From contig JAAFIL010000004.1 in assembly GCA_013297775.1 (NCBI GenBank), positions 62,001 to 126,000 on the forward strand: a stretch of 64,000 nucleotides of DNA, in the 5' to 3' direction. The translations under genes and the position numbers were made by a program. Shown in pieces: positions 1,388-29,572 of this stretch (positions are counted from its first letter, which is position 1; the number at the start of each line of letters is the position of its first letter). The notes beneath the pieces were generated by a model. The model was given only the letters and a program-made list of their open reading frames with translations, did no database searches and was not told where the DNA came from. The DNA comes from Bacteroidota bacterium (lineage in GTDB: Bacteria > Bacteroidota > Bacteroidia > B-17B0 > Aurantibacillaceae).

Positions 1388-2410
1388 ATGATAATACGAA
1401 GTAAAGCCCCTCTGCGTATTGGTTTGGCTGGTGGAGGAACCGATGTAAGCCCTTATTCAGATTTATATGGAGGTGCTATTTTAAATGCCTCCATTAATTT
1501 ATATGCTTACGCAAGCATCGAACCTTTAGATAATGGCACTATTGAATTGGTGATGGATGGAAGCGGCCAATGTATCAGTTTTGAAGCCCAAACCGAATTA
1601 CCTTTAGTAGAAGGGTTCGAATTATTTATAGGGGTTTATAACCGCATTGTTAAACAATTTCACAAGCAAGCACTTTCGTTTCGATTAACCACTTATATTG
1701 AGGCACCGCAAGGTTCGGGTTTAGGTACCTCTTCCACCTTAGTTGTTGCCATGCTGGGTGCTTTTGCCGAATGGTTGCAACTGCCACTCGGTAAATATGA
1801 CATCGCACATTTAGCTTTTGAAATCGAACGCATCGAATTAAAAATGGCAGGTGGTAAGCAAGACCAGTACTCGGCTACTTTTGGTGGAATTAATTTCATG
1901 GAGTTTTTAGCAAACGATAAGGTTATTGTTAACCCACTTCAATTGAAAGATACGATTTGGCGCGAGTTAGAAACAACCTTGTTGCTCTATTTCACGGTTA
2001 CCCAGCGTTTAAGTGCTACCATCATCGAAGAGCAAGTTAAAAATGTGAATGAAAAAAACATAAAAAGCATCGAAGCCATGCACCGTTTAAAAGAGCAAGC
2101 ATTAACTATGAAAGAGTTGTTGATGCGAGGCGATATGGAAAGTATGGGTACCATTTTAAAAACAGGATGGGAGCATAAAAAACAAATGGCAAAATCCATT
2201 AGCAATCCTTTAATTGATACCGTTTACCAAACGGCATTAAACCATGGGGCTAGTGGTGGCAAAATTAGTGGGGCTGGCGGGGGCGGATTTATGTTTTTCC
2301 TTTGTCCCAAACTAAGTAAAATGAAGGTAGCTAAAGCCATTGAAGAGTTAGGTGGTCGCATCCAACCGTTTCAGTTTACAAAAGAAGGATTAACAACTTG
2401 GAGTGTATAG
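1388..2410 (+). CDS. GHMP-family sugar kinase (D-glycero-D-manno-heptose 7-phosphate kinase-like)
   Basis: A 340-residue GHMP kinase. The N-terminal RSKAPLRIGLAGGGTDVSPY is the form seen in HddA-type heptose-7-phosphate kinases. The ATP-binding motif 2 is the glycine/serine-rich APQGSGLGTSST (residues about 107-118), and motif 3 is KISGAGGGGFMFF near the C-terminus. HddA-type enzymes phosphorylate the anomeric position of heptose-7-phosphate for nucleotide-activated heptose made for surface glycans. No other heptose genes (gmhA, gmhB, hddC) are nearby, so the substrate is inferred from the N-terminal motif alone. It lies 23 bp upstream of purC, probably co-transcribed. Confidence 0.85.
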   Translation: MIIRSKAPLRIGLAGGGTDVSPYSDLYGGAILNASINLYAYASIEPLDNGTIELVMDGSGQCISFEAQTELPLVEGFELFIGVYNRIVKQFHKQALSFRLTTYIEAPQGSGLGTSSTLVVAMLGAFAEWLQLPLGKYDIAHLAFEIERIELKMAGGKQDQYSATFGGINFMEFLANDKVIVNPLQLKDTIWRELETTLLLYFTVTQRLSATIIEEQVKNVNEKNIKSIEAMHRLKEQALTMKELLMRGDMESMGTILKTGWEHKKQMAKSISNPLIDTVYQTALNHGASGGKISGAGGGGFMFFLCPKLSKMKVAKAIEELGGRIQPFQFTKEGLTTWSV

Positions 2411-2433: not shown

Positions 2434-3369
2434 ATGGCATCACAAACAATTTATCAATTCAATCATCAAACACAATTTTACAGAGGTAAGGTACGCGATG
2501 TTTATACCATCAACGATAAGCTGTTGGTGATGGTGGCTAGTAATCGTATCAGCGCATTTGATGTGGTATTGCCCAAACCTATTCCTTTTAAAGGACAAGT
2601 TTTAAATCAATTAGCGGCTCATTTTTTAGAGGCCACGCGCGATATTGTTCCCAATTGGTTAATGGCTTCTCCTTTCCCTAATATTAGTGTAGGCCAACGT
2701 TGCGAACCTTTTAAAATTGAAATGGTAGTGAGGGGATATTTGGCAGGACACGCCGCCCGCACCTACGCAGCGGGTTTGCGTACTTTGTGTGGCGTAACTT
2801 TACCCGAAGGTTTAAAAGAAAATGATAAATTACCAAGTCCTATTATTACGCCCACCACTAAAGCCAGCGAAGGACACGATGAAGACATTAGCCGCGAAGC
2901 AATTATAGCTCAAGGAATTGTTAGCGAACCACACTACAAAGAATTAGAACGCATTACCTTGGCTCTTTATGCCCGTGGCCAAGAAATGGCAAATGCTATG
3001 GGCTTAATTTTAGTAGATACCAAGTATGAATTTGGCCTGCACAATGGCACCATTACATTAATGGATGAAATTCATACACCCGACTCGTCGCGTTATTTTT
3101 ATAAAGAAGGGTATGAAACCCGCCAACAAAACAACGAGGAACAAAAGCAATTAAGTAAAGAATTTGTTAGAAAGTGGTTAATTGCCAATGACTTTCAAGG
3201 GAAAGAAGGACAAACGATTCCTGAAATGGATGAGCATTGGATAACTGAAATTAGCAACCGCTACATTGAACTGTATGAAAAAGTAACAGGTCTAGTTTTT
3301 GTAAAAGAACCCATTGATGAGACTAAAATAGAAACTGAAATTAACGCTTTAATAAATACCTTCGCCTAA
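2434..3369 (+). CDS. purC: Phosphoribosylaminoimidazole-succinocarboxamide synthase (SAICAR synthetase)
   Basis: A 311-residue SAICAR synthetase, the step of purine biosynthesis that joins CAIR and aspartate with ATP. Seen in the sequence: the glycine-rich nucleotide loop [11 protein letters not shown] (residues 16-26), [12 protein letters not shown], the conserved [26 protein letters not shown] and VDTKYEFGL. Length fits the long form of about 300 residues, rather than the short form of about 240. It sits between the sugar kinase and a membrane protein with short gaps, suggesting one transcript. No other pur genes are in the window. Confidence 0.96.
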
Positions 3370-3385: not shown

Positions 3386-4678
3386 ATGTCGCTATCCTTT
3401 CAATACCCATTGCTCGAATGGAACTTTTTCAAAAAATTTATTCTTAGGTTTGGCTTCGGCTTTGTTATCTTATTTATTTTACCGTTTCCCTTCGATTTAT
3501 TGGCACCGCTTACCAATTGGCCAAGCGAGGTACTCGATAACCTTTTTAAAAGTCTTGTTCCGTGGGTGGGACAGCATGTACTAGGTATTGCAGAACCCAT
3601 TGATGTAACGTTTAATGGCAGTGGCGATAAAACCATGAATTATGTTGGGTTATTTATCCAATTTAGTTTAGCCCTTTTTATAGCTGTTGTTTGGAGCATA
3701 GCAGATCGTAACCGACGCTCCTATAATCAATTATTTTATTGGTTGATGGTGTTGTGTCGCTACTATTTAGCGTTTACTTTGTTTGGATATGGCTTTGCCA
3801 AAGTGTTTAAACTACAAATGAGCGCTTTGGGCTTAAATCAATTGGTGCAACCTATTGGCGAGCAAAGCCCAATGGGCATGGCTTGGAATTTTATAGGATT
3901 TTCAGATTTGTATTGCCGGTTTAGCGGTTGGGCCGAAGTAGTGAGCGGTGCGTTATTGGTGTTTAACCGCACGCGCGTGTTAGGCGGCATCCTCTCATTT
4001 GTGGTAATGACTTATGTGATGCTTTTAAATTTTGCATTTGATATTCCAGTAAAAATATATTCCTCGTTTTTGGTACTACTCAGTTTAATTTTACTCAGCC
4101 CTTATTACAAACGCTTATTTGGCGTTTTATTTTCAAATCGGTTTGTTAATACATTAGACGAAACGCCAGTATTTAAAAAGCAATGGCAACACCGTTTAGC
4201 ATTTCTACTTAAATACGGCTTAGTTATCTATGTGTGTGGTATAAACTTCTATCAAAACTATCAACAGCAATTTTTATATGGCGAGCTTGCACCCCAACCA
4301 CCGCTGTATGGTATTTATGAAACCCAAACCTGTTTCAAAAATCGAGATAGCATTTACCCATTTGCAGATACCTCAACTTGGAAACGCATGGTATTCAACA
4401 AAACAGGCTTCACAAATGTGCTGAAGTATAACGATAAAAAATTACGCTTAACCTGCGAAATAGATTCTGTAAAACAACAAATACAATTTAAGGACCGAAG
4501 TGACTCTACACTTCAATACCTTTTAAATTATAAGCGTTTAAACGATTCGATGTATCGCTTTTCGGGTATATTTAATAAAGACACTTTTAGTTGGACGAGT
4601 TTGCGTAAAACACGAAACGATTTTTTAATTTATAAACGCGGTTTTAACTGGATTAATGAAGCCCCCTTTAACCGCTAA
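3386..4678 (+). CDS. DoxX-like multi-pass membrane protein
   Basis: A 430-residue protein whose first 250 residues contain about six to seven hydrophobic segments (for example FGFGFVILFILPF, FIQFSLALFIAVVW, VMTYVMLLNFAF, SFLVLLSLILL), followed by another membrane span near residue 275 and a soluble tail of about 130 residues predicted to be beta-rich. The pattern of the membrane part, with YYLAFTLFGYGFAKVF, resembles DoxX-like proteins common in Bacteroidota. The function is unknown. It begins 16 bp after purC and ends 18 bp before the next small gene, so it probably belongs to the same operon. Confidence 0.75.
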   Translation: MSLSFQYPLLEWNFFKKFILRFGFGFVILFILPFPFDLLAPLTNWPSEVLDNLFKSLVPWVGQHVLGIAEPIDVTFNGSGDKTMNYVGLFIQFSLALFIAVVWSIADRNRRSYNQLFYWLMVLCRYYLAFTLFGYGFAKVFKLQMSALGLNQLVQPIGEQSPMGMAWNFIGFSDLYCRFSGWAEVVSGALLVFNRTRVLGGILSFVVMTYVMLLNFAFDIPVKIYSSFLVLLSLILLSPYYKRLFGVLFSNRFVNTLDETPVFKKQWQHRLAFLLKYGLVIYVCGINFYQNYQQQFLYGELAPQPPLYGIYETQTCFKNRDSIYPFADTSTWKRMVFNKTGFTNVLKYNDKKLRLTCEIDSVKQQIQFKDRSDSTLQYLLNYKRLNDSMYRFSGIFNKDTFSWTSLRKTRNDFLIYKRGFNWINEAPFNR

Positions 4679-4696
4679 CTAAAATGGAAACAAACT

Positions 4697-4870
4697 ATGA
4701 AAAATAAATGGTTAGGTTATTTAGCCTCGGTCTTAATTGTATTTGCTGGTGTGTTTTTTATCATTGCAGGAAAAACAGTTGCAGGTATTTTTCTAATTTT
4801 AGTAAGCATTGTAAGTTCTATATTGAAATTTAAAATGATGAAACAACACAACGATGAAACACAAGATTAA
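4697..4870 (+). CDS. Small two-span membrane protein (57 aa)
   Basis: A short open frame encoding 57 residues, beginning MKNKWLGYLASVLIVFAGV. It has two hydrophobic stretches (about residues 6-25 and 27-42) separated by GKTVAG, then a charged tail KFKMMKQHNDETQD. This looks like a two-helix membrane hairpin. It begins 18 bp after the DoxX-like gene, and its last 17 bases overlap the start of the M28 peptidase gene in another frame, as in translationally coupled genes. An ATG at 4684 is discarded because it meets a stop after seven codons. No family is recognised. Confidence 0.6.
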   Translation: MKNKWLGYLASVLIVFAGVFFIIAGKTVAGIFLILVSIVSSILKFKMMKQHNDETQD

Positions 4871-24098: not shown

Positions 24099-25004
24099 AT
24101 GGAACTAACAGATGAAATTTTAAAAATTAAAACAACATGGGAAACTATAAAATCGGGCGATAATAACTTTGAAACGCCTAACGCTAAACTGCACCAATAT
24201 ATTTTTAATGCACCCATTAGCAAAGAACGTATCTTGGCTTTTGAAAAGCAGTACCAGGTTGAACTACCCAATGAATACAAAACTTATTTAACCGAATTTT
24301 CTGATGGGGGCATAGCTTTACATACAACACTGTATGCTTTGCAAGATAGTTTACAACCCTTATTTTCCTATCAAAATAATAGCCACGATTACACGCATTG
24401 GTTAACAAATAATAGTAATCATTTTAAGAAAGAGTTTATACTATCAGAAAAAAAAATTATTGAATACCTAACACACCGCATGCAAAATGCCATTGGCAAC
24501 ACCCCGCCAATACAGATGGATATTGATGCTGGTGGTTATTTATTTTTATGTAACAAAACCGAAAGTAGTTTTTACATATTAGCTTTAAACGGTGCTTGTA
24601 AAAACGAAGTATATGTTTTAGAAAAAGCGGAAAGAGAATTAAGCAATGGTAAAACAGAACCTTGCTTTATGTTATACCCCGACGTTAGATTTGTTGGCAA
24701 TCAAATAAAAACATTATCGTTTATAGAATGGATGACCGACATACAAGCTAACTGGTTTAACCCTAATACTGATTTAGATAGACAATTAACGGCTACAAAA
24801 TTAATGTGGTATAATTATGAGGCGTGGGATAAAAACAAAGCTGTGTTTGGGGCATTTATGCACAACTATACTTTAAACTCCACACTTACTGAAAATGAAG
24901 TTTTAGAGTTTGAAAAGAAGTATAATTGCATTTTACCAACCGAATATAAACAGTATTTAAAAACGCACCTATCCCTTTTATCACAGCAAATAGTAAAAAA
25001 ATAA
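24099..25004 (+). pseudogene. SMI1/KNR4-domain gene, 5' part, interrupted by a transposon
   Basis: The frame encodes 301 residues, but only the first 288 codons (to 24963) are native; the last residues come from the transposon end. It contains one complete SMI1/KNR4 domain (residues about 45-215: ISKERILAFEKQYQVELPNEYKTYLTEF, DIDAGGYLFLCN, FIEWM) and the start of a second (ENEVLEFEKKYNCILPTEYKQYL). At TTTAAAAA (24956-24963) the transposon begins. Removing 24964-28490 (transposon plus one copy of the 8-bp duplication) rejoins this part in frame with 28491-29572, giving a 648-residue protein. SMI1/KNR4 proteins are often immunity proteins against polymorphic toxins; none is visible here. Confidence 0.9.
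24964..24986. repeat. Left terminal inverted repeat of the IS1595-family transposon
   Basis: Perfect 23-bp inverse of 28460-28482. The adjoining bases AAATA and AAAATAACG also recur on the other side with a few mismatches. The 8-bp target duplication TTTAAAAA lies directly outside. Confidence 0.95.
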
Positions 25005-25040
25005 CGAAATATTATAATAATTAAAAACTAATAAGTAAAC

Positions 25041-25235
25041 ATGAAAACAGTTGAAGTATATAAAAATCGCCAGTTTTTACACTTAATAAAACTTAAAGAG
25101 ATATTTACCTGCCATTTTATTAAAGGTAAAGAGTTATGTGTTTTTTTAAAGAATGTTTTTTACCATGAAAAGAACTCTTGTATTGGAAAGCAACATCAAC
25201 AAAGTATGGTAAAGGAGGTAGCTTATGGAAAATAA
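25041..25235 (+). CDS. Passenger protein 1 of the transposon (64 aa, unknown)
   Basis: A 64-residue basic protein starting 55 bp inside the left inverted repeat (MKTVEVYKNRQFLHLIKLKE). Its 3' end overlaps the next start codon by 11 bp in another frame. Three cysteines and several histidines are present, but no recognisable motif. It may be a real small protein or only the leader of the next gene; the tight overlap favours translation coupling. Confidence 0.4.
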   Translation: MKTVEVYKNRQFLHLIKLKEIFTCHFIKGKELCVFLKNVFYHEKNSCIGKQHQQSMVKEVAYGK

Positions 25236-25536
25236 AGAATTTACCCCAATACCTTTAGATTTCTCAATCTCTCATTTTCAAACATTCGTAGTTCTTATTA
25301 TCATAAAGGTATTATATACGTTAAAGGATAGAGATAATGATAAGTTTTATACGATAGAAGAACTTTACAAGTTAATTAACAAAAGAGCGTTTATGCCTTA
25401 TGAACTAAACATACATCATATTAAAGATATAATTCACAAAATAGAAGTTTATGGCTTTTTATGTTGTAAAGAGATAAATGGTGAAATTTCATATAAAATA
25501 GATGAATTAAAGGCGGATAGTTTAATTAATGATTAA
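25225..25536 (+). CDS. Passenger protein 2 of the transposon (103 aa, winged-helix-like)
   Basis: A 103-residue protein preceded by AAAGGAGGT (25212-25220), a near-perfect Shine-Dalgarno sequence 4 bp before the ATG. This is rare in Bacteroidota, where ribosome binding rarely uses this motif. The sequence (FYTIEELYKLINKRAFMPYELNIHHIKDIIHKIEVYGFL) has the helix pattern of a small winged-helix domain, with FLCCKEINGEISYKIDEL as a possible wing. This is inference from pattern only. Its end overlaps the convergent passenger 3 by 15 bp. Confidence 0.55.
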   Translation: MENKEFTPIPLDFSISHFQTFVVLIIIKVLYTLKDRDNDKFYTIEELYKLINKRAFMPYELNIHHIKDIIHKIEVYGFLCCKEINGEISYKIDELKADSLIND

Positions 25537-25785
25537 CTCTATAATGTATTCAATGTCGGTAGAAGTATATGTAAACCAAATGTAGCCAAAAGATGATATG
25601 TCTTTGATTAATAAATAATTTGTATCAACTATATTAAATGTACAATTTGAACCATTAGCAAGTTGGAGGTGCATCATTAGCCCTTTTATTTCTGAGTTAA
25701 AAGGAATCATTTTTAAAGCCGTTTCTCCCGTCTTAAAATATTGTGGTTCGGTTTTTGTTTTATTCGGATTTATAACGAATTTCAT
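25522..25785 (-). CDS. Passenger protein 3 of the transposon (87 aa, unknown)
   Basis: An 87-residue protein with a mixed alpha/beta pattern (ETALKMIPFNSEIKGLMMHL, NIVDTNYLLIKDI), no signal peptide and no membrane segment. It lies between the transposase gene (129 bp upstream, same strand) and passenger 2 (convergent). No family is recognised. Confidence 0.5.
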   Translation of the reverse strand: MKFVINPNKTKTEPQYFKTGETALKMIPFNSEIKGLMMHLQLANGSNCTFNIVDTNYLLIKDISSFGYIWFTYTSTDIEYIIELIIN

Positions 25786-25914
25786 ATTTTTAATTTTTAG
25801 AAGATAAATATATGAAATTAAGCCAATTCAACTATATTAAAAAACCTTTAACGGTAAAGTTATTAATTGGTGCTTTAATAGGACAAGTAATGTTAATTGA
25901 CTATTTAAGAGCAA

Positions 25915-27024
25915 TTAATCAAAAACTTCTGGAATACAGAAAGGCTTGTGTCCATTTTTCCATTTATTCTTTTTTTTAGTTCTATACGCAAGAAACTTAG
26001 GGTATTTTTTCGGTTTGTAACTGACGGCACATTTTTCATCGCTAACGGTATTTAAAATAGTTTCATCAAATGCTTTGGCTTTTTTAGATGTGCTTCGCCT
26101 ATTGTAACGATAGGCAGATTCGGCTAAGTAAAACGGCAGATATTTTTTACTTAAAACGTGATATTGACCACGAATACCATTTTTAATAATACTCCATACA
26201 CCTTCAATAGTATTAGTGTGAATTGATTCCTTTATGCCTTTTATGTATTTAACGTACTGTTTTTTGCTATGGTTTACTGTGTAGTGTAACATTTGTCTAT
26301 CAAAAACTCGGTAACTTCTAAAATCGTCCGTCATTACTTTTGTTTTATCTTTATCAATATTAGCATAACGTTTTAGTGTCTTTAATAAATCTTCGCCAGT
26401 TAAACTATCTTGTACCCTTAATGCTACTCTACCATTTTCTCCCCGCTCAACAACGCCAACTACTTTAATTTTATTTGAACCTCTACCACGTTTATTTTTA
26501 TTAAACTCTCCCCTTTGCCATTCATCGGTTGAAATAGCATTATAACCAATATTAGCAACATGAGAAGGTGCGTTACGTTTACGTGGCTTACCGCCAAAAT
26601 AACTTTCGTCCATTTCAACGATACCTTCTAACATTGTTACTTGGTCGAGCATTGCACATCTTACTCGCATACACGAATACCAAGCTGTTTTGTAAGTTAC
26701 ACCCAAGTTTCTCATTACATTCATTGCTGATATGCCTTTACGAGCATCAAGCATCAACGAAATTAACATAAACCATTTTGGTAATGGCATTTTTGAAGCC
26801 TCGAATATTGTATCGGTTAAAATACTAAAGTCCTTGTTGCAATTATTACAATGGAAAATAGGGGTTGCGCCATATTTTTGCCTTTGGCTATCAAATTTGC
26901 GTTTTGTTACTCGGTCTGAATTACAATGCGAACATACAGGCTTGTTATTCCATCTTACTTTTTCTAAATGCCTAATACATTTAAGGTGGGTATTGAAATT
27001 TTTCTGAAGCTGTATTAGGTTCAT
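25915..27024 (-). CDS. IS1595-family transposase
   Basis: A 369-residue transposase. The N-terminal zinc ribbon is seen as CSHC ... CNNC (residues about 30-60), followed by DTIFEASKMPLPKWF, a standard IS1595 phrase. The catalytic core has EMDESYFGGKPRKRN (first Asp), VMTDDFRSY (second Asp) and HTNTIEGVWSIIKNGIRG (the terminal Glu/Asn motif). It is longer than many IS1595 transposases because of a basic C-terminal tail. The ATG at 27024 (MNLIQLQKNF) is preferred over 27072, which lies inside the tRNA-like sequence. Confidence 0.95.
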   Translation of the reverse strand: MNLIQLQKNFNTHLKCIRHLEKVRWNNKPVCSHCNSDRVTKRKFDSQRQKYGATPIFHCNNCNKDFSILTDTIFEASKMPLPKWFMLISLMLDARKGISAMNVMRNLGVTYKTAWYSCMRVRCAMLDQVTMLEGIVEMDESYFGGKPRKRNAPSHVANIGYNAISTDEWQRGEFNKNKRGRGSNKIKVVGVVERGENGRVALRVQDSLTGEDLLKTLKRYANIDKDKTKVMTDDFRSYRVFDRQMLHYTVNHSKKQYVKYIKGIKESIHTNTIEGVWSIIKNGIRGQYHVLSKKYLPFYLAESAYRYNRRSTSKKAKAFDETILNTVSDEKCAVSYKPKKYPKFLAYRTKKKNKWKNGHKPFCIPEVFD

Positions 27025-27047
27025 TATTTCTGTTTTACAAAAAAAAG

Positions 27048-27121
27048 TGGAGATAATGGGATTCAAACTCACACCTGCTATACTGTCGAGTATGCAATTC
27101 TATCAATTAAAATACATCCCC
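27048..27121 (-). tRNA. Degenerate tRNA-like sequence inside the transposon
   Basis: Seventy-four bases that fit much of a tRNA cloverleaf: acceptor arms GGGGATG and TATCTCC (two G-U pairs), discriminator A, TA at positions 8-9, a D-loop AATTGATAG, and a T-loop GTTTGAATC. The anticodon arm is irregular (GCATAC/GTATAGC with one bulge and a 6-base loop TCGACA), and the T-stem has one mismatch. A T-tract follows. It is not a normal tRNA; it may be a decayed gene, a tRNA mimic or chance. It lies just upstream of the transposase start codon. Confidence 0.35.
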
Positions 27122-27309
27122 AATTTTTTTGTAAAGAAAATAATTTTTAAAAAATCATGGTAGATAAAACAAATAGAATTTTTAAGTACCTAATTTTATG
27201 TACTTATTTTAAGTACATAAAAAATTGTACATTATTTAAGTGCTTAAATTTTACTAATTATTTTAATTAATTAAAAAATAGTAGTAAATTTGTCTTGTCG
27301 AGTATGCAA
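27084..27309. repeat. Fourteen-base direct repeat TGTCGAGTATGCAA (27084-27097 and 27296-27309)
   Basis: The same 14 bases occur twice in the same orientation, 212 bp apart. The first copy forms the 5' half of the anticodon arm of the tRNA-like sequence (on the minus strand); the second is at the expected start of a candidate plus-strand RNA. The region between (27122-27295) is extremely AT-rich, noncoding, and has repeated AAGTAC/GTACTT motifs. Confidence 0.6.
27285..27292 (+). promoter_or_regulatory. Candidate promoter -7 box on the plus strand within the transposon
   Basis: TAAATTTG matches TAnnTTTG exactly. No protein gene follows on the plus strand, but a hairpin with T-tract does, 43 bp downstream. 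Confidence 0.35.
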
Positions 27310-27368
27310 AAAATAAATTAGATTACATTTTTAGAAACGCAGGTATTAATTATCTGCGTTTTTTATTT
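27299..27368 (+). ncRNA. Candidate short RNA of about 70 nt within the transposon
   Basis: Inferred from a perfect -7 box (27285-27292) and a terminator-like hairpin (27335-27361: AAACGCAG/CTGCGTTT, 11-base loop, then T-rich). No frame of more than a few codons lies between. The predicted 5' end contains CGAGTATGCAA, complementary to the tRNA-like sequence on the other strand. Entirely inference. Confidence 0.25.
27335..27366 (+). terminator. Hairpin with plus-strand T-tract, overlapping the end of passenger 4
   Basis: Arms AAACGCAG (27335-27342) and CTGCGTTT (27354-27361), followed by TTTATTTTT on the plus strand. The stop codon of the minus-strand gene 27350-28033 lies in the loop, so the same hairpin could also end that transcript, although its minus-strand T-tract is weak. 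Confidence 0.6.
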
Positions 27369-28033
27369 TTAGAATAAGTGTTGTAATTGTCAGTACAATA
27401 CTTCACAGCATTAAATAATTCAGAGTTTGTCGGCATTACATTATCATTGTAATTATCAATTATCTCGTCTGAAATTTTATATCCTAATTTCAATGATATA
27501 AAACCAACCAATGCACATATTTTATAATGAGAATAGTCTTTACGGATGCGTTTATTGTTTGATAGATAATTATCTATTACTTCATAACACTTACCATAAA
27601 AATATTCTTTGTCTTTATTTAATTCAAAAGCCTCAATAAAAGGAAAGACAGCTTCTCTAATCATATTATCAAAAGAAAATACGGTGTAATAAGGATTTGA
27701 TTTTTTACTTTTTTTGACACCTAAATTAGGAATATCTTCTTCATAGTTAGTAGCAATTACCTTGTAGCTAAAATAATATTTTTTGTCTTTTTTGTAAGTA
27801 GAAATAATAGCATCGCTTATCGTATCTACAATCTTATAATAATAATTTTCCTTGTCATCGTCTTTAGGCTTCATTAAAAAAATCATTCTTTTAAAAACCC
27901 GTAATGCTACTGGATTATTTTTTAAATTATCCTCAATATAATGCTGATACGATAAAAACCTGCAAACGTTTTCATTTGATATTTTTAAATAAAAATAATC
28001 ATCTTCATTCTCTTTATGTTTTTTAATAGGCAC
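27350..28033 (-). CDS. Passenger protein 4 of the transposon (227 aa, unknown)
   Basis: A 227-residue, lysine/tyrosine/asparagine-rich soluble protein (DDYFYLKISNENVCRFLSY, KVIATNYEEDIPNLGVKKSK). It uses AT-rich codons even by the standard of this genome, as often seen in transferred cargo. The start is GTG at 28033, and an exact -7 box ends 5 bases before it, so the transcript may be nearly leaderless. No family is recognised. It is downstream of passenger 5, same strand. Confidence 0.65.
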   Translation of the reverse strand: MPIKKHKENEDDYFYLKISNENVCRFLSYQHYIEDNLKNNPVALRVFKRMIFLMKPKDDDKENYYYKIVDTISDAIISTYKKDKKYYFSYKVIATNYEEDIPNLGVKKSKKSNPYYTVFSFDNMIREAVFPFIEAFELNKDKEYFYGKCYEVIDNYLSNNKRIRKDYSHYKICALVGFISLKLGYKISDEIIDNYNDNVMPTNSELFNAVKYCTDNYNTYSKNKKRR

Positions 28034-28038
28034 TAAAA

Positions 28039-28046
28039 CAAAGATA
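28039..28046 (-). promoter_or_regulatory. Promoter -7 box of passenger 4
   Basis: Minus strand TATCTTTG, an exact TAnnTTTG match, with its last base only 5 bases before the GTG start at 28033. Transcription would begin almost at the start codon. Confidence 0.45.
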
Positions 28047-28092
28047 AAAATTAAATTTAGCTAACAATATGCAATTTTATATTAAATAAATT

Positions 28093-28320
28093 TTAACTGT
28101 TCTTTTTGGTTTTTAGCTTACCAACTAGTTCAGATGCTTTTAATAACTCGTTTTCTAATTTTTCATACCCAATCACCCCGCCTATTTCTAGCAATTCAAG
28201 TAATCGTTCTCGTAATTTATCGTTTAATTTATCGTGTATATTTTTAAGTATTTTTTTTACATCTGGAGTTTGTTTTTCAGACTCTAATTCTCTATAAAGT
28301 TTTGCTAATTCACTACTCAT
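28093..28320 (-). CDS. Passenger protein 5 of the transposon (75 aa, coiled coil)
   Basis: A 75-residue, almost wholly helical, highly charged protein (MSSELAKLYRELESEKQTPD, DKLRERLLELLEIGGVIGYE). The heptad-like Leu spacing suggests a helical hairpin or coiled coil, plausible for a small partner or antitoxin-like protein of passenger 4, 59 bp downstream. This is inference; no family is recognised. Confidence 0.6.
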   Translation of the reverse strand: MSSELAKLYRELESEKQTPDVKKILKNIHDKLNDKLRERLLELLEIGGVIGYEKLENELLKASELVGKLKTKKNS

Positions 28321-28459
28321 AACAATTATTTTAATACCGCTAATTTAAACAAAAAATGCTCATTTAGATTGAATGAACATTACTTATTGGTAAAAACAGC
28401 TTATTATCGCTAATTTAACTGCCATTACAGCAAATGTTAGACGTTATTTTGAGTATTTA

Positions 28460-28482
28460 CTGTGATAAAAGGGATAGGTGCG
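28460..28482. repeat. Right terminal inverted repeat of the IS1595-family transposon
   Basis: Perfect 23-bp inverse of 24964-24986. The second copy of the 8-bp target duplication TTTAAAAA follows at 28483-28490. Confidence 0.95.
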
Positions 28483-29572
28483 TTTAAAAATTGTAAGCAA
28501 TGGTGGGGTTGGTCCGTTTTATGGTATGTATAGCTTGCAAAATGCTGCCATAGCTCTGAATAGCGGAGGTATTGATGACGGAACATTTATTGATTACTTA
28601 AACCAAAATCCGAGTCATTACTCAACACCTTTTCCAATTATTGATGAGGAAGTAAACACGTATTTGACTAACGCGGCTAAAAATCCGAAAGCTAAGTTGT
28701 TACCCATAAAATTAAATAAAAATGCAGGTGGTTATTTATTTTTGGCAGAATATGGTTGTGGTGGTTATTACATCATGCCGGTAAATGGAAATGGTGCGGG
28801 CGAAGTTTGGTATCTTCAAAAAATCGAAGCTAATAAATTAACTTGGGAACTGACCAATGCGGATGGAGAACTAGAACAATCTGGAAGTTATGGCCATGAT
28901 GATGAAAGTGATTATTTTGAAATTTATCCTGAATTAAAATGGAATAATAATCAAGCATCTACCGTTAATTTTTTAGAATGGCTTAATTACAGGCAGTCTA
29001 TTTGGTTTAACGAATTAAACAATGAAACTACTTCGGTAACTAATTCAGCACCGGTGAATTTAGATAATGAAAATGCTTACTACCCTTTAGCTGTTGGTAA
29101 TAGTTGGGTTCATGATTTTGGAGGACAAGAAATGATTACAACCATTGAAAGTGTTGAAAACGATGGTACATTTATAACCGTTAATTCATTAAATCCAATA
29201 AAAGGAAGTATGAAAAAAATAAATGGCGAATACTTTAGCGATAGCCATGAAAAAGGAAATATGCAGCTCGTATTAAAAGATAAGTTAGTATCAGGCGATA
29301 CCTGGGAAGTAAAGTTTAAAGCTAATGGCATAGATTGCGTTTATAAATTTACTGTAAAAGAAATAGTTGAAAGTAAATTAGTAGAAGGTCAAGAATACAA
29401 AAATGTAGCAATGGTAGAATCAGATAGTAATTACCTAATAAATGGAAATTTAATTTCGATAAACGCATTTACACAAACCTATTATGCCAAAGGAGTGGGT
29501 ACAATTTTAACGACAACAAGCGGTGTATTGGGTGTTACGGCTACTCCCTTGTTATCGTATAATTTAAAATAA
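28478..29572 (+). pseudogene. SMI1/KNR4-domain gene, 3' part, separated by the transposon
   Basis: Native codons resume at 28491 (IVSNGGVGPFYGMYSLQNAA) in frame with the 5' part at 24099-24963. The remainder of the second SMI1 domain follows (NKNAGGYLFLAEYGCGGYYI, NFLEWLNYRQSIWF), then a C-terminal domain of about 170 residues (YYPLAVGNSWVHDFGG). A GTG at 28478, in the transposon end, reads straight into it, so a shortened protein of 364 residues could still be made. This chance start explains why it can look like an intact gene. Confidence 0.88.

Follow-up and report, generated by a model that had tools for sequence, protein, structure and literature searches.

A tRNA-like element ahead of an IS1595-family transposase and a predicted antisense small RNA matched to its anticodon arm

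The window analysed here comprises 64,000 nucleotides (nt) of contig JAAFIL010000004.1 (positions 62,001 to 126,000) from a Bacteroidota bacterium and contains an IS1595-family transposon spanning 24964-28482 (3519 base pairs, bp), whose transposase is probably controlled by a pair of RNAs, a small RNA and the tRNA-like leader against which it would be directed. This reading was obtained from sequence and combines layout, complementarity, partner specificity, fold conservation and promoter and terminator signals. The pair, which is absent from the initial annotation of the stretch, recurs in related elements across Bacteroidota, always matching but with different letters. The tRNA-like element (27121-27048, minus strand), identified through its Rfam tRNA score and covarying stems, is positioned between the gene for a 227-amino-acid (aa) protein, here termed protein A, and the transposase gene, with 23 nt between its 3' end and the transposase ATG at 27024, and is presumed to form the transposase 5' leader. 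The 5' strand and loop of its anticodon arm (27084-27097, minus strand) are made up of a 14-mer, TTGCATACTCGACA, which a repeat search recovered exactly at 27296-27309, a copy whose start lies 188 nt ahead of the tRNA-like element. When the transposon was shuffled 300 times, no 14-mer repeat of such G+C content arose, and a search of the host genome with the anticodon segment returned the two known copies and no third within one mismatch. The upstream copy lies just downstream of the box TAAATTTG (27285-27292, plus strand), which conforms to the -7 consensus TAnnTTTG of the primary sigma factor in Bacteroidota (PMC7366714), and is followed by an intrinsic terminator (27333-27363, plus strand) with a 13-bp stem and a T-rich tail (13 pairs against a shuffle mean of 0.0). 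Thus, a plus-strand small RNA is predicted at 27296-27368, with inferred exact ends, whose first 14 nt (27296-27309) would be complementary to the anticodon arm. The combination sought as a mark of antisense control, a promoter, a terminator and complementarity to the stretch directly 5' of the transposase, is present in the window at the level of sequence.

A similar arrangement is displayed by the related loci, among which the window element is denoted W. Nine of the first 11 loci scanned (W, L039, L041, L042, L043, L044, L045, L180 and L181) hold a tRNA-like element together with an exact 12-16 nt copy that overlaps the anticodon loop in every case; the letters differ by locus, and the observed length was reached in none of 300 shuffles per locus. 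L194 and L200 were added afterwards through protein A, giving 11 loci in the pairing matrix. In this 11 x 11 matrix of energies the best partner of all 11 small RNAs is their own tRNA-like element, with cognate duplexes of -12.0 to -31.4 kcal/mol and a strongest non-cognate duplex of -19.5 kcal/mol. L044 and L045, whose transposases are almost identical, differ in tRNA-like element, layout and antisense segment, so that the module is swapped as one unit. The -7 box is located 2-6 nt before the paired segment and is a perfect TAnnTTTG in 10 of the 11 loci (background 0.0009 per base), while L200 has TATCTTAG. Nine of the predicted RNAs form a terminator hairpin followed by a T run (folding z -2.8 to -6.5), the 5' end being mostly unstructured. 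The predicted RNA has the complement of the anticodon loop at its very start or a few nt from it, followed by that of the stem's 5' strand, a geometry that fits an antisense RNA nucleating on the loop and then invading the stem. No displaced copy is present in L040 and L037, where leftward terminators lie upstream of the tRNA-like element and TAnnTTTG boxes, found by reading, lie downstream; overlapping antisense RNA candidates are the natural reading of these two loci. L037, a viral contig, also displays three consecutive tRNA-like units ahead of its IS1595 transposase (210-581), each preceded by a leftward terminator, and this locus is present at both contig ends.

Comparison of 12 sequences indicates that the tRNA-like element is a kept fold, its cloverleaf stems being maintained by covariation. 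Pairing holds in 96.9% of the cells of the acceptor, D and T stems, a value that falls to 45-55% when the partner columns are slid by 1-3 positions, and the same three stems are recovered by RNAalifold without guidance. Two-sided changes occupy 46 stem cells against a mean of 13.9 in a shuffle control that ignores the relatedness of the 12 sequences, and compensated changes are found in 10 of 16 pairs. The tRNA-like elements of relatives with matches reach 43-57 bits in the Rfam tRNA model, and those of the window and L043 share 76% identity. T-loop position 56 is C in 30 of 31 host tRNAs; C56, the partner of G19 by which a functional tRNA was judged, is replaced by U in the window, L043 and L044 and by G in L180. 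With G18 fixed, A19 or C19 would keep the 19-56 elbow pair as A19-U56 or C19-G56, which is suggestive only, the register of the D-loop not being unique. Anticodon readings are odd or unassignable in some relatives (gcgg, tcgg, tcac) and take the ordinary-looking form tga in L041, L043 and L181. The gap between the tRNA-like element and the start codon measures 14-32 nt in the displaced-copy loci apart from L045. A T run follows the element in the window, L041, L043 and L044, where attenuation with the tRNA-like element acting as terminator is a further possibility. Rfam matches to Afu_191 and AniS fell below their own cut-offs and were taken as chance.

We infer that both RNAs are transcribed, that the tRNA-like element serves as leader and that pairing lowers transposase output. 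A transcript initiated in the promoter region that precedes the tRNA-like element would carry this element at its 5' side and run into the transposase gene, and the 5' end of the small RNA would bind the anticodon loop and open the stem. Production of transposase could then be reduced through altered tRNA-type processing of the leader, through occlusion of the start region or because the paired RNA is targeted for decay. As the matching sequences vary from one element to the next, silencing by a given small RNA should be directed chiefly at its own kin. The two divergent promoters are separated by 112-171 nt across the loci, a control region that is the probable target of protein A and, in two relatives, of the protein B that replaces it. 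In the window the region contains repeats spaced by 27 bp (27174-27281) that are operator candidates, while relatives have other repeated palindromes there; palindromes or repeated 7-mers, specific to each locus, are present in the control region of most loci, such as ATGTACAT, TTTCAGTACTGAAA and TTACAGTACTGTAA, and the same test detected neither palindromes nor repeats in that of L181.

Protein A (27350-28033, minus strand) belongs to the conserved core of most relatives, in which it holds the same position, and its place beside the palindromes suggests that it is probably a transcriptional regulator. It is basic, with an isoelectric point (pI) of 8.9 in the window; relatives, reached via the transposase loci and alignment, have about 190-233 aa and a pI of 8.5-9.8 across W, L039, L041, L042, L043, L180, L181, L194 and L200, the L044 contig being too short to judge. 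In L040 and L045 its place is taken by protein B (about 290-306 aa), for which a resemblance to RteC noted by eye found no RteC match in Pfam and is not claimed. Further relatives of protein A occur in other mobile-element settings beside small helix-turn-helix genes (L201, L202, L203), directly after a tRNA gene in L202. Searches of Pfam, NCBIfam and PHROGs gave no family match for protein A, comparison with solved structures by sequence gave nothing usable (best E 0.44), and its structure model (predicted local distance difference test, pLDDT, 76) found through Foldseek/VIA at best an unusable short helical overlap with T7 RNA polymerase (Z 5.0). A direct scan of genome contigs with the 227-aa protein returned nothing. 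In L201 a hairpin-rich region (4600-4780; GTCTGATAA...TTATCGGAC), lacking an Rfam match above cut-off, separates the protein A relative from a distant IS1595 transposase.

Several observations weigh against antisense control of the transposase. The tRNA-like element of the window scores 28.0 bits in the Rfam tRNA model, just below the cut-off of 29, is unrecognised by ARAGORN in the window and has an ordinary folding energy when taken by itself (z -0.74). The gap to the start codon extends to 101-134 nt in L040, L037 and L045. L200 (3440-4200) contains protein A, small RNA and tRNA-like element but no IS1595 transposase, a layout that could point to a role unconnected with the transposase, although the locus has the weakest box and duplex among the 11 (TATCTTAG, -12.0 kcal/mol) and may be a remnant in decay. 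That the RNAs are transcribed, where they start and how they pair is predicted, and the regulatory role of protein A derives from position and palindromes, its fold being unrecognisable. Antisense control is repressive in IS10, IS30 and IS200, while in ISPpu9 the antisense RNA Asr9 increases translation of the transposase (PMC8450116); given Asr9, control in the window could be either repression or activation. The module of L200 is followed by a small ribbon-helix-helix-like open reading frame (ORF) and then by an apparent IS1380-type transposase.

It is possible, if doubtful, that the tRNA-like element and the small RNA constitute a self-contained exchangeable module, either an RNA-only toxin-antitoxin or a guide RNA, which Bacteroidota mobile elements would trade among themselves and diversify separately from the transposase. 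In the specific form of an addiction system, a rogue tRNA would disturb translation, the small RNA would mask its anticodon loop and loss of the transposon would harm the cell. The pairing does cover exactly the anticodon loop, several tRNA-like elements look fully folded (up to 57 bits) with odd loops and the unassignable anticodons given above, and L200 holds the pair without an IS1595 transposase. A free toxin, however, would not need to stand directly before the transposase start, as the tRNA-like element does in most displaced-copy loci, and the degenerate window copy missed by ARAGORN and the ordinary-looking tga of L041, L043 and L181 also speak against this form, which we consider unlikely. 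A role in RNA-guided targeting, with an arm of the tRNA-like element guiding the transposase or protein A to DNA and the upstream copy marking the self or donor target, would make use of a hypervariable guide-like segment that is repeated letter for letter in the DNA of the element itself. Yet a -7 box 2-6 nt ahead of that copy and a terminator behind it predict an RNA start there, L040 and L037 have overlapping antisense candidates in place of a second copy, the target site TTTAAAAA is unlike the segment and the genome holds no third copy within one mismatch, so that guided targeting appears very improbable.

Slighter still is the chance that the direct repeat is a functionless scar, the attL/attR of a lost integrative element at a tRNA gene, even if tRNA genes often serve as attachment sites and one of them directly precedes a protein A relative in L202. 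The repeat stays matched to the anticodon arm through many sequence changes, as the cognate matrix reflects, the promoter-terminator context is constant, the stems covary, and less than 300 bp, without an integrase, are enclosed. The initial annotation had seen an ordinary IS1595 transposon with unrelated passengers in toxin-antitoxin or defence pairs, a view now rather improbable. It gains from the defence-type cargo of the L042 relative and from the unexplained 75-, 87- and 103-aa proteins; against it, the 227-aa gene is common to most related elements, whereas its supposed 75-aa partner has no relative in those loci. The second pair, formed by a 64-aa and a 103-aa ORF with a strong Shine-Dalgarno (SD), dissolves into a relic and an orphan, since the 64-aa ORF is the remnant of a transposase tail to which the SD-like string belongs. 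No defence match rises above noise in the window.

Antisense control with a tRNA-like target, the reading preferred here, has partial parallels in known systems. ColE1 RNAI/RNAII and similar incompatibility RNAs of plasmids also form diversified, element-specific loop pairs, in their case for control of replication rather than of a transposase. T-box leaders and the tRNA-mimicking leaders of the thrS type likewise rely on anticodon-loop pairing or a tRNA-like shape in mRNA leaders, but they serve host amino-acid genes and their partner is a tRNA or a synthetase instead of an antisense RNA. The IS1595 family (ISXO2-like DDE, zinc ribbon) shares with the present element the transposase domains, the 8-bp duplication and the carriage of passenger genes, to which the tRNA-like leader and the matching small RNA are added here. 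IS10 (RNA-OUT/RNA-IN), IS30 and IS200 encode antisense RNAs acting on the transposase mRNA (PMC8450116), as is predicted for the window; in contrast, the putative target here is a tRNA-like fold, and most of the elements encode the small RNA apart from its target, with a duplicated segment that keeps the complementarity. ISPpu9 resembles the window in that Asr9 is encoded upstream of the transposase gene and directed against a structured 5' untranslated region, and in that its RNA partner genes (Asr9/Ssr9) are partly independent of the transposase gene; it differs in that no tRNA-like fold is described for it and Asr9 stimulates translation (PMC8450116). A search of the open literature, with subscription papers and preprints outside its scope, found no precedent for a tRNA-like transposase leader with an antisense RNA. 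Antisense control of transposases is known in a few insertion sequences; the new part would be an element-diversified tRNA-like leader whose anticodon loop is the target. If true, this would represent a kin-specific silencing code for IS1595-type transposons, an added use of the tRNA fold and a source of orthogonal RNA pairs for testing in Bacteroidota. It would also illustrate that reading 'passenger' regions by genes alone can overlook a conserved RNA core.

The transposase (25915-27024, minus strand) has 369 aa when read from the ATG that aligns with its relatives (MNL...). Its DDE core and zinc ribbon, already recognised in the initial annotation, match the Pfam families DDE_Tnp_IS1595 (5.7e-30) and Zn_ribbon_IS1595 (6.5e-6), both passing the curated cut-offs, and residues D139, D233 and E274 are invariant in the alignment of the close clade. 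Related transposases with 54-70% identity are found in Bacteroidota genomes and on one viral contig. In the transposase tree, from which L194 was left out as its gene is cut by the contig end, the carriers of tRNA-like elements group within one supported clade of 18 rows (2 label changes; 0 of 500 shuffles as low). The rest of this clade (L046, L047, L091-L094, L099) and the outgroups checked gave no tRNA match above the Rfam cut-off. In a scan of 20 other IS1595 loci none passed this cut-off, the tRNA-like matches being confined to close relatives. In L031 a Flavo-1 RNA (3039-3112) adjoins an IS1595 transposase.

The element is a complete, genuine IS1595-family transposon with extra genes, and the boundaries first proposed for it hold. 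The terminal inverted repeats (24964-24986, plus strand, and 28460-28482, minus strand; CGCACCTATCCCTTTTATCACAG) match over 23 bp without a mismatch and are identical at 34 of 39 positions when extended to 39 bp. They are flanked by the 8-bp target-site duplication TTTAAAAA (24956-24963 and 28483-28490). The relatives end alike, with CGC[A/G]CCTATCCC...ACAG, and 8-bp duplications are legible in the flanks of L046 (TAAAATAA), L181 (AAAATAAA) and the contig pair L194/L185 (TTTACTAT). When the flanks are fused with a single copy of the duplication they yield one uninterrupted ORF of 648 aa (...LPTEYKQYLKIVSNGGVGPFYGMY...), the left part of which matches SMI1_KNR4 (SUKH-1) in Pfam (E 1.1e-12). The gene split by the insertion (24099-29572) is thus of the SUKH (SMI1/KNR4) type, with its 5' part at 24099-24963 and its 3' part at 28491-29572, both on the plus strand; this family is frequently linked to polymorphic-toxin immunity. 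The host genome contains the element once. A further exact direct repeat of 14 bp, TCAACTATATTAAA, is located within the element at 25625-25638 and 25828-25841.

All five ORFs listed as passengers in the initial annotation exist, and the passenger genes other than the conserved core are variable cargo. The 64-aa ORF (25041-25235, plus strand), which is not a normal gene, ends in VKEVAYGK and displays 39% identity over 51 aa to the C-terminal tail of the L091 IS1595 transposase. The string AAGGAGGT, previously taken for a strong SD, forms part of the codons for this ending. In L091 and L094 the VKEVAYGK tail overlaps the start of the following ORF, 13 nt in, and the coding string AAGGAGGT(A/G)GC(T/G)TATGG also provides a strong SD and the start codon of the overlapping ORF; the sites are at about 1495-1520 (minus strand) in L091, about 2440-2460 (plus strand) in L094 and 25210-25240 (plus strand) in the window. 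Bacteroidota rarely use SD sequences, and the string is possibly a site of translational coupling. The 103-aa ORF (25225-25536, plus strand) has no relative in 295 genomes, phages and plasmids, and its structure model (pLDDT 45) is not interpretable. One distant relative elsewhere was found for the 87-aa ORF (25522-25785, minus strand) and one, solitary, for the 75-aa ORF (28093-28320, minus strand), which is not conserved in related elements. Compared with Pfam, NCBIfam, PHROGs and PADLOC, the 103-, 227-, 75- and 87-aa proteins gave no toxin-antitoxin or defence match above noise, the best defence match, of the 75-aa protein to GajA (E 0.0076), being at noise level; this result is compatible with a new type of such systems. 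Between positions 1454 and 3943, L042 encodes a cll-like PD-(D/E)xK protein (4.5e-30), a Beta protein/PD-Lambda-2_C (8.5e-45) and a DUF3800 protein, so that this transposon platform can carry defence cargo, though not visibly in the window.

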